The position numbers were made by a program, and so were the translations under genes. A DNA stretch of 20,665 bases from a virus: positions 1-20,665 of IMG/VR virus record IMGVR_UViG_3300032285_000277; one strand, given 5' to 3'. Below, one piece after another: positions 133-8,465 of this stretch. Position 1 is the stretch's first letter. Each line of letters begins with the position of its first letter. The notes under the pieces were generated by a model, which saw nothing but the letters and a program-made list of their open reading frames with translations, was not told the DNA's origin and made no database searches.

Positions 133-840
133 ATGAAAATTAAAAACTGGTCAAAGTTTCAGCACTTTAAAGACAGAAAACCGCCTTGGGTTAAGTTGTA
201 TCGTGATGTTTTGGATGACATGGAATGGTACGAATTAGACCCACTTGCCAGCAAAGTCTTGGTGATGTGCTGGCTGATTGCAAGTGAAGATGATGGTCGC
301 TTGCCAAACTCAAAAATTCTTGCATTTAGGTTAAGGATGACAGAAAAGCAAACTATAGATTGCTTAAACAAGTTGTCTCATTGGCTGGAACAAGATGATA
401 TCAACACGATATCAGCTCAATATCAACTTGATAGTCTAGAGACAGAGACAGAGACAGAGAAAGAGACAGAATATTTATGCCCACCTGACGGTGAGCCTGA
501 AAGCAAAATTCCGTTTTGCAATCACCAAGAAGTCATTGAGCTGTACCACAAGCATTTGCCAACACTTCGCAGGGTTGAGGTTTGGAACGAAACCAGAAAA
601 GGCTACTTACGGCAGCGGTGGCGGGAAGTAGCTGACGAGCTGATGAAAACCAAGGCCATTGATTCTTCAGACGTTCTTGGCTGGTTTGCTGAATTCTTTG
701 AACACATCGGTTCATCTAAGTTTTTGACAGGCAGGGTCAACGACAAGTCTGGCAGATCATTTGCCGCCGATCTTGAGTGGATTTTGAAACCAAGCAACTT
801 TGCAAAAATAGTCGAAGGAAAATATCATGGCGCTAACTAA
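133..840 (+). CDS. phage replication protein (DnaT / lambda O-like helicase loader or initiator)
   Basis: This 235-aa protein has the two-part build of phage replication initiators and helicase loaders. Residues about 18-95 form a winged-helix-like N-terminal domain common in phage replisome organisers (PPWVKLYRDVL, then ASKVLVMCWLIA, GRLP and a helix-turn-helix stretch near LAFRLRMTEKQ). A low-complexity acidic linker (about 96-120, with an ETETETEKETE run) follows. The C-terminal part (about 130-235) ends in DLEWILKPSNFAKIVEGKY, typical of DnaT-type C-terminal domains in phages. It probably binds the phage origin and recruits a helicase. There is no clear Shine-Dalgarno sequence before the ATG. 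The linker DNA carries 11-bp repeats, listed separately. It overlaps the next gene by 14 bases. The role is inferred from domain pattern and position. Confidence 0.65.
   Translation: MKIKNWSKFQHFKDRKPPWVKLYRDVLDDMEWYELDPLASKVLVMCWLIASEDDGRLPNSKILAFRLRMTEKQTIDCLNKLSHWLEQDDINTISAQYQLDSLETETETEKETEYLCPPDGEPESKIPFCNHQEVIELYHKHLPTLRRVEVWNETRKGYLRQRWREVADELMKTKAIDSSDVLGWFAEFFEHIGSSKFLTGRVNDKSGRSFAADLEWILKPSNFAKIVEGKYHGAN
397..440 (+). repeat. 11-bp direct repeats, candidate replication origin iterons
   Basis: Three consecutive 11-base units, GATATCAACAC (397-407), GATATCAGCTC (408-418) and AATATCAACTT (419-429), are followed by a degenerate fourth, GATAGTCTAGA (430-440). The ATATCA core recurs at exact 11-base spacing (398, 409, 420), about one helical turn. 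The repeats lie in the part of the replication gene that encodes the linker, as lambda ori does in gene O. A purine-rich stretch follows. Repeat and spacing are seen; origin function is inferred. Confidence 0.4.
439..470 (+). repeat. GAGACA microsatellite-like purine-rich tract
   Basis: A run of about five GAGACA/GAGAAA hexamer units encodes the Glu-Thr rich linker of the replication protein. It is strongly purine-biased and sits directly downstream of the iteron-like repeats. It could be simple slippage in a tolerant linker, or part of an origin where strand opening occurs. Confidence 0.6.
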
Positions 841-2362: not shown

Positions 2363-2637
2363 GATTTGCATCTAGGCGGGATGCCAATGAAGCCGAGATT
2401 GTCCAGGCTTTGCGGGATGCTGGCGCTTACGTTTGGATAATTGGCTTACCTGTTGACCTTTTAGTGGGTTACAAAAGCCACACGTTTCTGGTTGAGGTCA
2501 AAAATGGCCCTCAGAAGCGTTTAACGGACTTACAAGCAGACTTTTTTGAAAGTTGGGCCGGAGGTACGCTGGCGAGGATTGACAGCCCTGAAGCGGCTTT
2601 AAGAATGTTGGGGGCAGTCGGTGAAATACGACCTTGA
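2359..2637 (+). CDS. PD-(D/E)XK nuclease-like protein (VRR-NUC / resolvase type)
   Basis: The 92-aa protein starts at an ATG that overlaps the endonuclease TGA (ATGA). It has the compact plan of a PD-(D/E)XK nuclease: an N-terminal helix with Glu (ANEAEIVQALRDAGA), then GLPVDLLVG giving the Asp, then FLVEVKNG giving the E-x-K, then a helix LTDLQADFFESW. The size and plan fit small phage VRR-NUC or Holliday-junction resolvase-like enzymes. With NinB next to it, a role in processing recombination intermediates is likely. Enzyme class is inferred from motifs; the substrate is unknown. Confidence 0.6.
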   Translation: MRFASRRDANEAEIVQALRDAGAYVWIIGLPVDLLVGYKSHTFLVEVKNGPQKRLTDLQADFFESWAGGTLARIDSPEAALRMLGAVGEIRP

Positions 2638-3034
2638 CAACGAAGCCCAAGCTTTAGCCTTGATGCGTAGTCTTTGGCCCAAAATTAAAGATGCGCTAAA
2701 CGCTGGCAGACAGCTCACGCTAGAGGTTAAACCTGCAAAACGAACAGACCCACAAAACGAGAAGTTTCACGCCATCATTGGCGACATTGCTAAACAAGCG
2801 CAGCACATGGGTGCTAAATGGGACGCGGAAGATTGGAAAAGGCTGTTGGTTCAAGAATATTGCAAAGAAAAAGGATTGGCAGCAGGGAAAGTCATTCCTA
2901 ATCTTTCTGGTGACGGAATTGTTCAGTTAGGGATGCAGACCCGCAAATTTACAAAAGAACAGGCCAGCGAGTTTGTGGAATTCCTTGAGGCTTGGGCAGC
3001 ACAAAACGGGGTGACACTTGAGAAAACGATGTAA
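2621..3034 (+). CDS. ninB: NinB-family recombination protein
   Basis: This 137-aa protein matches the NinB (lambda Orf) family, which helps RecA-type recombination by acting with single-stranded-DNA-binding protein on DNA. Characteristic features are LTLEVKPAKRTDPQNEKFHA (about 32-51), the helix after it, and AEDWKRLLV (69-77) followed by a region before FTKEQASEFVEFLEAWAAQNG near the C-terminus. The length is usual for the family. The start is a GTG at 2621, preceded by GGGGGC and overlapping the nuclease gene by 17 bases. Confidence 0.8.
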   Translation: MKYDLDNEAQALALMRSLWPKIKDALNAGRQLTLEVKPAKRTDPQNEKFHAIIGDIAKQAQHMGAKWDAEDWKRLLVQEYCKEKGLAAGKVIPNLSGDGIVQLGMQTRKFTKEQASEFVEFLEAWAAQNGVTLEKTM

Positions 3035-3479
3035 ACGCAAAGTCTGGTCAACAGACATAAACACTATTGCTCACGCCATTTCAGGCGCTGCGGTAGCTGA
3101 CAAGCAATCTTTAGACAAGCTCAGAATAAATGAGCTAGGCGCAATTGATGCCATGACTAAAGGCAAAGGTACTGTGGAAGATTGGCGCTGGCTTGCCGAC
3201 ATCATGAACATATCTGAAACGATGGGCATTAACGGAATCGGGCCAGAAGTCCTGCCGCATTGCAAGATAGCCCAAGAAGCCCTGTACGAAGCCGCTAAAC
3301 GCTACGAAACCACGGGCAAGATGGGATTGTCAGGATTGGGGATTAAGGCGATTAAGGACGTTTGGTCTTATCACGATCTTCAGCGCACAAGCATTTCTAG
3401 GTCTGAATACGAGCGAATGATTCAAAAGACCGCCAACTACATCAAGAGCAAAGGAAAAGATGTGGTGGAGATTACATGA
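3018..3479 (+). CDS. conserved phage protein of unknown function in the recombination block
   Basis: The 153-aa frame opens with TTG at 3018, 17 bases inside ninB, and is preceded by GGGGTGA. The N-terminus is very basic (RKRCKRKVW) and the rest helical. Conserved-looking parts are WRWLADIMNISETM (about 57-70), a helix IAQEALYEAAKRY, and the C-terminal LQRTSISRSEYERMIQKTANYI. It occupies the position where lambdoid phages keep nin-region or late-regulator genes, and a regulatory or DNA-binding role is possible but not shown. I do not assign a family. Confidence 0.65.
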   Translation: MRKRCKRKVWSTDINTIAHAISGAAVADKQSLDKLRINELGAIDAMTKGKGTVEDWRWLADIMNISETMGINGIGPEVLPHCKIAQEALYEAAKRYETTGKMGLSGLGIKAIKDVWSYHDLQRTSISRSEYERMIQKTANYIKSKGKDVVEIT

Positions 3480-3802
3480 GGCCAAAATTTAACTATTTCA
3501 GGAGCAAAAAGCACCTGATGAACGTGGCAGACTTGCCTTGCCAAAATTGCTACATTGAAGGCCAGACCCAGGCTGCACACTCAAACTGGGCTGAACACGG
3601 AAAAGGCAGGGGAATCAAGGCTAGTGACGAATACACAGCGGCACTTTGCCAAACATGCCATACCGAGCTGGACAGCGGAGCTAGACTAAACAAAGAACAA
3701 AGACGCGACTTGTGGCAAATGGCTTACCAAAAAACAATAAACAAATTAATCGAAAAAAACCTTTGGCCTGTTGACATTGCTAAACCAAACCTTAAAATCT
3801 AG
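3476..3802 (+). CDS. HNH nuclease, Ref / DUF968-like
   Basis: This 108-aa protein carries the Cys-His pattern of the Ref/DUF968-type HNH nucleases found in phage recombination regions: PCQNC (Cys22, Cys25), AAHSNWAEHGKGRGIKASD (His35 and following) and ALCQTCHTELDSG (Cys58, Cys61, His62). P1 Ref, the best-known relative, is a RecA-dependent nuclease that boosts recombination. The start overlaps the preceding TGA (ATGA). A promoter for the downstream element lies inside its 3' end. Family placement follows the motif; RecA dependence is not shown. Confidence 0.7.
   Translation: MRPKFNYFRSKKHLMNVADLPCQNCYIEGQTQAAHSNWAEHGKGRGIKASDEYTAALCQTCHTELDSGARLNKEQRRDLWQMAYQKTINKLIEKNLWPVDIAKPNLKI
3771..3798 (+). 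promoter_or_regulatory. sigma-70 promoter ahead of structured element 2
   Basis: A perfect TTGACA (3771-3776) is followed after 16 bases by TAAAAT (3793-3798), five of six matches to the -10 box. Transcription would begin near 3805, at the first base of the outer stem of the element. The promoter lies in the end of the Ref-like nuclease gene. Boxes and spacing are seen; activity is inferred. Confidence 0.6.
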
Positions 3803-3804
3803 GA

Positions 3805-3993
3805 CGTTGGACGTCAAGCCAGCATTCGAGGATGTCTCAGTAGGGATTTTCTGGCTTTCTCCCCTACCTAGTCAAGACCAAATCGAGTCCAACACGCATG
3901 ACCTTTCGGGCAATGTCGCCCAAGTACCAATGAGAGGTCAGCCGTGTTGGTAGCAGTTGCCGACCCTTTGGGGCTTCGTGCCCCGCCTTTTTT
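3805..3993 (+). ncRNA. structured non-coding element 2, candidate small RNA or regulatory leader
   Basis: This 189-base stretch has no gene and runs from a promoter to a terminator. Stems found by eye: GTTGGAC (3806-3812) with GTCCAAC (3887-3893); AAGCCAG (3816-3822) with CTGGCTT (3851-3857); GTAGGG (3840-3845) with CCCTAC (3862-3867), which crosses the previous stem as a pseudoknot; and a long arm CCAACACGCATGACCT (3889-3904) with AGGTCAGCCGTGTTGG (3935-3950), enclosing a 4-bp hairpin (3908-3911 with 3918-3921). The first and last pairings share 3889-3893 and exclude each other, as in a switch. It carries TCTCAGTAGGG (3835-3845), shared with element 1. It may be an independent RNA or the leader of the gene at 4003. 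No known RNA family recognised. Confidence 0.55.
3970..3993 (+). terminator. intrinsic terminator
   Basis: GGGGC (3970-3974) and GCCCC (3980-3984) form a 5-bp GC stem around a TTCGT loop and are followed after three bases by six T (3988-3993). The gene at 4003 begins right after, with AAGGA (3994-3998) as ribosome binding site, so this is either an RNA end or an attenuator. Confidence 0.65.
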
Positions 3994-4002
3994 AAGGACA
4001 CT

Positions 4003-4380
4003 ATGGCTTTCGAAAAAGACCCAAATCAAAAAGATGTAGCAGACTTCATCAGTACGCTACTTCACTCAGGGACAGTCACCCACTTTATGCACTTATCAAC
4101 CGATTCGTTTGCGGTTCACATGGCATTAGGTGCTTATTACCCTGAAATTATTGAATTGACCGATTCGTTTGCAGAGGCATATTCTGGTTGCTACGAAAAG
4201 ATTAAAAACTTTCCAGAGAATTTCCACAATGCCAAAGACCCAGTCCGCTACATGGAAAGCATTTCAGAATACGTGGCAAAGAATCGTAAAGCTATGCCAG
4301 ACGAAACGCAGCTCCAAAACATCATTGACGAAATAGCAGGTCTGATTGATTCCACCCTTTACAAGCTGACGCTGAAATGA
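4003..4380 (+). CDS. ferritin-like phage protein (DUF5856 type)
   Basis: This 125-aa all-helical protein resembles DUF5856, a phage family thought to share the ferritin-like four-helix fold. The first helix contains LLHSGTVTHFMHLSTDSFAVH, the position where relatives have a helix with HxxHL and SxxxH residues, followed by LGAYYPEIIELTDSFAEAYSG. The end (LQNIIDEIAGLIDSTLYKL) forms the last helix. The function of the family is unknown; metal or oxygen chemistry is a guess from the fold alone. AAGGA 4 bases before the ATG fixes the start. The gene overlaps the glycosyltransferase by 4 bases and is the first gene after structured element 2. Confidence 0.6.
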   Translation: MAFEKDPNQKDVADFISTLLHSGTVTHFMHLSTDSFAVHMALGAYYPEIIELTDSFAEAYSGCYEKIKNFPENFHNAKDPVRYMESISEYVAKNRKAMPDETQLQNIIDEIAGLIDSTLYKLTLK

Positions 4381-6855: not shown

Positions 6856-7164
6856 ATGAATAAAGTAGCAGAATCTGGAAAAAGGAGAGGCGGTCGCAAG
6901 GCAGGCATCCCCAACAAGACCACACAACAGGCAAGAGAGGCCATTGCTTTGTTTGTTGATGGTAATGCACACAGATTGGCAGAGTGGCTGGATGAGGTCG
7001 CTAATGGCATTCCTGAGGCTGACATAAAACCCAACCCTGCCAAGGCGTTTGAGCTGTTTCAAAGCGTAGTTGAGTATCACGTTCCCAAGTTAGCCAGGAC
7101 TGAGATCACGGGAGCCGATGAAGGCCCAATAGAAATGGTAGTGACATGGGCAAGCGCGAAATAA
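6856..7164 (+). CDS. putative terminase small subunit
   Basis: The 102-aa protein begins with a basic segment GGRKAGIPNKTTQQAREAI (about 11-29), like the DNA-binding N-terminus of many small terminase subunits and DUF5681-like proteins, followed by helices LFVDGNAHRLAEWLDEVANG and AFELFQSVVEYHVPKLAR. The direct 19-base overlap with the large terminase gene supports the assignment. The small subunit recognises packaging sites on phage DNA and stimulates the large-subunit motor. There is no clear ribosome binding site before the ATG, so expression may be low or coupled. The assignment rests mainly on position. Confidence 0.6.
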   Translation: MNKVAESGKRRGGRKAGIPNKTTQQAREAIALFVDGNAHRLAEWLDEVANGIPEADIKPNPAKAFELFQSVVEYHVPKLARTEITGADEGPIEMVVTWASAK

Positions 7165-8465
7165 TCCTGCCCTATGCACCAAGAAAGGTTTTCATGCCTT
7201 TCCACAACAGGACAGAGCGTTGGTCTTGTTTGGTAGCACACCGAAGAGCTGGAAAGACTGTAGCGGCCATTAACGACTTGATTAAACGAGCGATTACTGA
7301 GGGCAACAGAATGGCCCAGTATGCTTACATTGCTCCATTCAGAAGCCAAGCCAAGAGGGTTGCGTGGGATTACCTAAAGTATTACGCTGCGCCGATCACC
7401 AAAGCAACCAATGAAGCAGACTTGAGCGTTGAGCTTGTTAACGGGGCCAAGATCATGCTGTTTGGGTCTGATAACGCTGACGCAATGCGGGGACTGGGTT
7501 TTAACGGGGTCTACCTTGATGAATACGGGGATTTTAAACCAAGCGTTTGGGGTAACGTCATTCGTCCTACATTGTCAGACCGATTGGGTTGGGCTGTCTT
7601 TGGGGGTACGCCCAAGGGAAAGAATCAGTTTCACGACATTTACAGGGTGAGCCAGGCTACGCCAGATTGGTTTCTGTTAAGGCTTCCGGCAAGTGTTTCT
7701 AAACTCCTGCCAGACATAGAACTTCAAGCAGCCCGAGACCAGCTCAGTCAAGACCAGTACGACCAAGAGTATGAATGCAGCTTTGATGCGGCTATTCTGG
7801 GTGCGTTTTATGGCCAAGAGATGCGCCAGGCTCAAGACGAGGGGCGAATCCAAGACCTGAAGTTTGACCCTGATGCGCCAGTATTCACGGCGTGGGACTT
7901 GGGTTATCGGGACGATACGGCAATCTGGTGGTATCAGATTGTGCGCGGCGAGATTCACGTAATGGACTATTACGCAGTCTCAGGGGCCAGCATTAACGAC
8001 ATTGCTGACGTTGTGAACATGAAGGGTTATCGGTACACCAAGCATTACCTACCGCATGATGCTAGAGCTAAGACGCTGGCAAGCGGTGGAAAGTCGATTG
8101 TTGAGCAGTTGGCTACGCACTTGGGTGGCATGGGAAAATTGGCCATCGTGCCCGAAATTGGGATTCAAGACGGAATTCAAGCGGTGCGGATGATTCTGCC
8201 CAAGTGTTACTTTGACCCAATCTGTGATGAGGGGCTAGAGGCACTCAGACAGTATCAAAGGGAATATGATGAGGACAAGAAAACATTTAGGCAAAGTCCG
8301 AGGCATGACTGGTGTTCACACCCTGCGGATGCGTTTAGAATGTTAGCCGTGGCCTACCGTCAAGATAAAAAAGACGAGCCGCAGCCCAAAGGAAGAACCC
8401 TGCAAAATATCACTTTGGATGAATTGTGGGACTTTGAAACGACACACAAAGAGGAACGGATATGA
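7146..8465 (+). CDS. terL: terminase large subunit
   Basis: This 439-aa protein is the DNA-packaging motor and nuclease. The ATPase part shows Walker A AHRRAGKT (31-38), Walker B VYLDEY (122-127) with its catalytic Glu, and the coupling motif GGTPKGKNQFH (153-163). The nuclease part shows the metal-binding Asp in FTAWDLGYRDD (Asp251), HDARAKT (Asp305) and HPADAFR (Asp395), the usual RNase H-like triad. The length is normal for the family and nothing is missing. It starts inside the small-subunit gene and ends with an ATGA overlap into the next gene. Confidence 0.93.
   Translation: MGKREIILPYAPRKVFMPFHNRTERWSCLVAHRRAGKTVAAINDLIKRAITEGNRMAQYAYIAPFRSQAKRVAWDYLKYYAAPITKATNEADLSVELVNGAKIMLFGSDNADAMRGLGFNGVYLDEYGDFKPSVWGNVIRPTLSDRLGWAVFGGTPKGKNQFHDIYRVSQATPDWFLLRLPASVSKLLPDIELQAARDQLSQDQYDQEYECSFDAAILGAFYGQEMRQAQDEGRIQDLKFDPDAPVFTAWDLGYRDDTAIWWYQIVRGEIHVMDYYAVSGASINDIADVVNMKGYRYTKHYLPHDARAKTLASGGKSIVEQLATHLGGMGKLAIVPEIGIQDGIQAVRMILPKCYFDPICDEGLEALRQYQREYDEDKKTFRQSPRHDWCSHPADAFRMLAVAYRQDKKDEPQPKGRTLQNITLDELWDFETTHKEERI

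Follow-up and report, generated by a model that had tools for sequence, protein, structure and literature searches.

The locus studied here, positions 3771-4002 of the window (by which the whole analysed stretch of 20,665 nucleotides is meant, a 20.7-kb virus record that is itself a fragment), is predicted to encode, from promoter to terminator, a modular RNA composed of a pseudoknotted module A, a module B whose insert varies, one further small hairpin and the terminator itself. Module A constitutes a new class of structured RNA, found neither in Rfam nor, as searched, among deposited phage genomes, and its carriers are well over a hundred uncultured phages. Comparison of close relatives revealed that the modules are gained, lost and reshuffled as cassettes. 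As to function, the locus was suggested to be an accessory small-RNA gene made up of exchangeable cassettes and probably acting in trans, a reading for which confidence and doubt are about evenly balanced.

Genomic context of the RNA locus

Protein annotation of the window identified an HNH gene between the genes for the replication initiator and NinB, which precede the RNA, while the DUF5856 gene and the terminase gene follow it (Table 1). The terminase is best matched, with about 40% identity, by those of Microcystis, Pelagibacter and Rhodoferax phages, and many of the contigs carrying module A are presumably of freshwater origin. The initial annotation had described a TTGACA-N16-TAAAAT promoter followed by a terminator, and both signals are present at the locus. 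With 11 of 12 consensus matches the promoter is the top-scoring one of the window, whose total of promoter-like sites is the same as in shuffled sequence; it is conserved in L002-L004, and an extended -10 element (TGNTAAAAT) resides at the equivalent place in other members of the DUF5856 gene neighbourhood. The terminator is conserved in relatives both with and without modules A and B. The whole stretch was said to be gene-free, which holds for positions 3803-4002, where an ORF scan found no reading frame of more than 60 amino acids, but not for the promoter, which lies outside gene-free DNA because the HNH/DUF968 ORF extends over it. A second apparent gap, at the window end, is occupied by an ORF running off the contig. 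As anticipated for a structured RNA, the 193-nt RNA was found to be more stable than shuffled sequence (z -2.9, using a folding program that cannot form the pseudoknot).

Table 1. Coordinates of genes, signals and RNA elements in the window.
Feature	Position	Strand	Sequence or support
Replication initiator	133-840		
NinB	2621-3034		
HNH/DUF968 ORF, upstream neighbour of the RNA	3476-3802		
Sigma-70-type promoter (predicted)	3771-3798	+	TTGACA-N16-TAAAAT, within the 3' end of the HNH/DUF968 ORF
Predicted transcription start	~3805-3806	+	
Module A, pseudoknot RNA family (P1, P2, P3, P5, P4)	3806-3893	+	covariance model and covariation
P1	3806-3812 with 3887-3893	+	7/7 pairs changed on both sides
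P2, pseudoknot helix	3816-3822 with 3851-3857	+	AAGCCAG with CTGGCTT; covariation
P3	3826-3829 with 3883-3886	+	TCGA with TCGA; G-C to A-U in 22/95 sequences
P5	3834-3836 with 3876-3878	+	GTC with GAC; third pair C-G 50, U-G 33, U-A 12
P4	3840-3845 with 3862-3867	+	6/6 pairs changed on both sides
Module B hairpin	3893-3946	+	compensatory changes in stem 2
B outer stem	3893-3896 with 3943-3946		(C)ACG with CGT(G)
B stem 2	3900-3904 with 3935-3939		GACCT with AGGTC
Variable insert X of B	3905-3934		
Small hairpin	3946-3964	+	GTTGG...CCGAC around conserved box GCAGTTGCC (3953-3961)
Intrinsic terminator (predicted)	3969-3993	+	TGGGGCTTCGTGCCCCG, then CCTTTTTT; stem-loop 3969-3985 plus T6
Downstream gene, DUF5856 / phrog_858	4003-4380	+	
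Further predicted gene after DUF5856	from 4377		
Terminase large subunit	7146-8465		

Module A, a pseudoknotted RNA family

A DUF5856 protein search led to 80 related loci, the leaders of which differ by entire modules. In the viral collection, a first pattern scan identified module A in at least 119 stretches; a second pattern, tied to the 3' half, and a third, in which the central part of P2 was unconstrained, raised this to 149 distinct sequences among the matches listed. Covariance model R1, which includes the window sequence itself, matches positions 3804-3897 with 92.8 bits (E 1.6e-24).

Helices P1, P2 and P4 had been proposed from the window, where they show full complementarity, and the crossing of P2 and P4 had been taken for a pseudoknot. 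Each of the three proved to be backed by compensatory changes, whereas P3 and P5, absent from that first proposal, were added by comparison; P2 crosses P3, P5 and P4, all inside P1. In an alignment of 95 members (A1), 98.8% of the cells pair in the structure named as compared to 81.8% upon shuffling, 455 cells are changed on both sides as compared to 128, and sliding the partners lets pairing fall to 32-51%. An unsupervised all-versus-all column comparison of these 95 sequences ranks pairs of P1, P4, P3 and P5 top, the sequence of P1 being free to vary from phage to phage. P2 is almost invariant in A1, partly because the search patterns fixed it, and as a consequence this first alignment was unable to test P2 and a P2-free scan was needed. 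With a pattern excluding the usual central pair of P2, five other P2 sequences were recovered, in which both strands are changed in step (AAGCAGA/TCTGCTT, AAGCTCG/CGAGCTT, AACCAGA/TCTGGTT, AACGGCA/TGCCGTT and AGGCAGA/TCTGCTT). Among 39 divergent members (A2), 97.5% of the pair cells pair as compared to 77.0% upon shuffling, and the covariation that had been called for in relatives was found for 21 of the 28 pairs, which are changed on both sides; five of the seven pairs of P2, itself 100% paired, are among them. Since the P2 strands co-change in divergent members, the module A pseudoknot is established. G-U pairs are frequent on the sense strand, and the unpaired invariant nucleotides are GGAU, UUUU, UC and YRAA. 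The motif AGGATGT, which was required by the first search pattern and not by the one anchored on the 3' half, is invariant in all 95 A1 sequences.

The earlier impression that the RNA fits no recognised family was borne out by a Rfam 15 covariance-model search of the window, in which nothing scored at or above gathering. Up to E 10, solely Ms_IGR-4 (minus strand, E 0.089) and SorX appeared, both far below gathering, whereby the SorX match (E 5.3) covers the part of B and the terminator; up to the same E value, the window matched no ribozyme family. A blastn search of module A or B against 50,697 phage records returned nothing meaningful, and DNA similar to the window stretch was not found among these records. 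Among 84,980 genomes of bacteria and archaea, three pattern matches were obtained, and L318 alone is a genuine module A; its 3.4-kb contig was assigned to a Beijerinckiaceae MAG but probably belongs to a misbinned phage.

Genomic distribution of module A

In 22 long records with module A, one significant copy each was found, which may be an undercount because the records are metagenomic and of uncertain completeness, and in 15 phages picked for their B arrays no module A was found. Module A resides in leaders after promoters, as part of mosaic arrays, between genes and at the 3' ends of operons. In L084, L121 and L146 it directly follows promoter-like boxes whose upstream ORFs are divergent, and in L155, L178, L212 and L410 it lies at the 3' end of an operon and faces convergent ORFs. 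Both neighbouring ORFs are on the strand of module A for 103 of the 149 sequences listed, the rest being mostly operon ends, contig ends or doubtful ORFs. The neighbours are unrelated to one another and comprise exonuclease, DNA polymerase-like, TerS, TerL, DUF5856, methylase-like and ssDNA-binding proteins. The ssDNA-binding proteins encoded upstream of module A belong to at least two unrelated families, phrog_6015 and phrog_112 (L100, L125 and others).

At least five T within 4 nt after P1 were identified in 37 of 120 non-array copies as compared to 6.7% of control gene starts, a contrast that is inflated by relatedness and whose control was measured over a wider interval. In several loci (L112, L129, L155, L177, L212 and others) P1 is directly followed by five to eight T, hence module A itself looks like a terminator there.

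Module B, boundaries and mosaic arrays

Module B carries a CAT/AGC internal loop, and its stem 2 occurs in compensatory variants (GGGGA/TCCCC, GAGGA/TCCTC, GGAGA/TCTCC, GAAGA/TCTTC and GGCGA/TCGCC, next to the pair of the window). With a B pattern that leaves stem 2 free, 98.4% of the cells are paired as compared to 88.4% (maximum 90.4%) in shuffles. B is followed by a slot, termed Y, that is bounded by GTTGG and CCAAC. Using a heuristic extraction, by which some Y ends will be wrong, the X inserts of 204 B units fall into 105 clusters and 183 Y domains into 74, one of which, with 25 members, is module A. Some Y clusters resemble tRNA; that Y domains are ordinary tRNA genes was rejected, as ARAGORN finds 0 among the 183 extracted. 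The Y domain at L057:4873-4981 reaches a Rfam tRNA score of 39.3 bits, yet it is 109 nt long and has a long insertion in place of the anticodon arm. Intergenic arrays in which B hairpins alternate with GTTGG/CCAAC-closed Y domains were observed in L095, L222, L299, L306, L130 and others, and array inserts reappear in differing combinations in uncultured phages; a literature search on phage RNA decoy arrays yielded no papers. At the small hairpin, the partner of GTTGG is present where GTTGG precedes it and missing from empty-slot relatives, and the block of box plus terminator follows B units at other loci, too (L226, L228, L310 and L466).

Cassette turnover and the proposed switch

Close relatives share 91-95% identity over the 200 nt upstream of the promoter and 89-95% over the downstream gene, and in these the slot is empty (L008) or holds B (L012), A and B (L006) or B, Y and B (L015), which documents cassette gain, loss and reshuffling between close relatives. 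As promoter, terminator and downstream gene are present without A or B, both modules are dispensable for the leader. The empty-slot leaders of the DUF5856 homologue in L007-L022 read GAGCAGTTGCCTTTGGGGGGTGCTCTCCCCC; base pairing of GAGCA to the TGCTC of the terminator loop may give these an attenuator of their own. In L023-L040 a different long conserved leader stretch is located upstream of the DUF5856 homologue, for which (L025 and L038) no Rfam match was found; here, the same box TGCTAAAAT follows and directly precedes the gene.

The initial annotation had further suggested that P1 competes with an arm formed by 3889-3904 and 3935-3950, so that two mutually exclusive folds would act as switch or attenuator. 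This arm can indeed pair, with one 3-by-3 internal loop, and it shares 3889-3893 with P1, but that this sharing amounts to a switch is not supported. Each helix is kept in phages lacking the other module, since at the DUF5856 leader place A stands alone in L073, L075 and L076 and B in L012, L050, L051 and L062. The GTTGG terminating B has its own partner within the small hairpin (CCGAC in 11 of 15 cases; CCAAT, CCAGC or CCTAC in the other four), and hence all four elements, from module A to the terminator, can form at the same time. With helices conserved independently and each strand having a separate partner, the two-fold switch was rejected; a pair of conserved, mutually exclusive helices, as expected of a riboswitch or attenuator, was not found, nor was a conserved alternative helix seen to compete with P1. 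The five shared nucleotides are rather to be read as a module boundary. Folding without P2 gave -65.9 kcal/mol unconstrained as compared to -62.5 kcal/mol with P1 and P3 enforced. P2 as a duplex would add -9.3 kcal/mol, the pseudoknot penalty left uncounted, and it can be added to the P1 and P3 fold only, because the unconstrained fold uses part of its 5' strand. Once P2 is counted, the calculated energies are compatible with co-formation of all modules.

Comparison with known phage RNAs

The late leader of phage lambda, pR'-6S RNA-tR', is located at this same gene position, and the window shares with it the layout of promoter, short RNA and terminator, set where early-type genes (those for the replication initiator, NinB and HNH) give way to packaging genes. 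It differs in that close relatives have this leader without modules A and B and in that module A also occurs far from such junctions; a Q gene was not found among ten window proteins scanned, the record being a fragment. Phage HK022 put is a structured RNA at an operon start upstream of a terminator as well, yet it consists of two stem-loops without the pseudoknot of module A, and the terminator described here exists without module A. Promoter, pseudoknot RNA array, terminator and gene are also the layout of type III toxin-antitoxin systems, in which ToxI forms near-identical tandem copies of about 36 nt. Unlike these, each record holds one module A, and the downstream gene is DUF5856 instead of a toxN-like gene and a different one at other module A loci.

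GOLLD and ROOL are likewise phage-borne structured non-coding RNAs of unknown function, often near tRNA islands, and ROOL is reported to contain several pseudoknots (PMC12286853). Both are much larger, many GOLLD exceeding 800 nt as compared to about 88 nt for module A, and their covariance models gave no match in the Rfam searches. STAXI is reported to be mainly a pseudoknot near genes of ssDNA-binding proteins (PMC2864571); it occurs in tandem with two or three copies, whereas module A is a single-copy, multi-helix pseudoknot without a covariance-model match in Rfam.

Function of the RNA

RNA polymerase is predicted to start at about 3805 and to stop at about 3993, which would yield an RNA of about 190 nt. 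Its 5' half would be module A in its compact five-helix fold, followed by the B handle with its insert, the small hairpin and the terminator. A and B would thus represent exchangeable cassettes, bordered by the recurring boundary GTTGG/CCAAC and placed between a promoter and a terminator which also exist without them. Such an RNA would most likely act in trans and bind a host or phage partner via the invariant unpaired nucleotides of module A (GGAU, UUUU, UC and YRAA). As module A is position-independent, sense-strand, single-copy and exchangeable, an RNA working in trans explains these properties best, and since the cassettes are gained, lost and reshuffled among close relatives, we guess that the partner is host- or defence-directed. 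Of the regulated leader and the free small RNA, between which the initial annotation left the choice, the latter hence fits better; the switch or attenuator was given up, and the leader does without A and B.

Cis regulation fits as well, because many copies are followed at a short distance by a start codon. Module A would then be an aptamer or protein-binding operator which controls the next gene, be it via transcription through P1 or a later terminator, or via translation initiation. The closeness of many copies to a same-strand gene, whose start codon often follows the end of P3 by 23-31 nt, the aptamer-like invariant core nucleotides, the T-runs after P1 and the strong terminator right before the first gene in the window are consistent with this idea. 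It is rendered rather improbable by copies at operon 3' ends that face convergent genes, by downstream genes unrelated to one another, by close relatives having promoter, terminator and gene without A or B, and by the lack of a conserved helix seen to compete with P1.

A processing or stability element appears more doubtful still, whether in the form of a 5' or 3' end that resists nucleases, of a target for RNase or of a self-cleaving ribozyme separating transcripts. This role would suit a compact pseudoknot whose closing stem is free in sequence and which occurs at 5' and 3' ends as well as between genes; often it takes up the entire gap from stop codon to ribosome-binding site. However, a single copy per record is at odds with the many junctions that would benefit, module A shares its array slot with tRNA-like and other domains, and no ribozyme family was matched.

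That module A is a CsrA/RsmA sponge, as its invariant AGGAUGU resembles the CsrA consensus RUACARGGAUGU, a string found in the CsrA literature (e.g., PMC4347634), is very unlikely, since the preceding base is G in 72 of 95 sequences where the consensus has A and covaries with its P3 partner, and since each module A RNA offers one site whereas CsrA sponge RNAs carry many. Hardly any weight is given to a DNA-level element, such as an origin or a site of packaging or recombination that folds when single-stranded. The single copy per record, its frequent location next to genes for ssDNA binding and replication, and the similar neighbourhood reported for STAXI pseudoknots (PMC2864571) could be quoted in favour of this reading, but against it stand an orientation that follows transcription, G-U pairs on the sense strand, promoters before and T-runs after module A and its absence from close relatives.

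The accessory small-RNA gene thus being preferred, a wider idea was considered, namely that phages maintain mosaic RNA loci in which module A, tRNA-like and other Y domains and B handles with their many different inserts are swapped between common boundaries, promoters and terminators, whereby each cassette would disarm a different host factor. We regard this as speculative and on balance unlikely; if true, mosaic RNA loci would be the RNA counterpart of anti-defence gene islands. Structured phage RNAs of unknown function were known before; what is new is the module A family and its cassette organisation. The layout of boundaries and slots makes function testable by cassette swap or deletion, and the architecture suggests that RNA modules are exchanged between phages like accessory genes.
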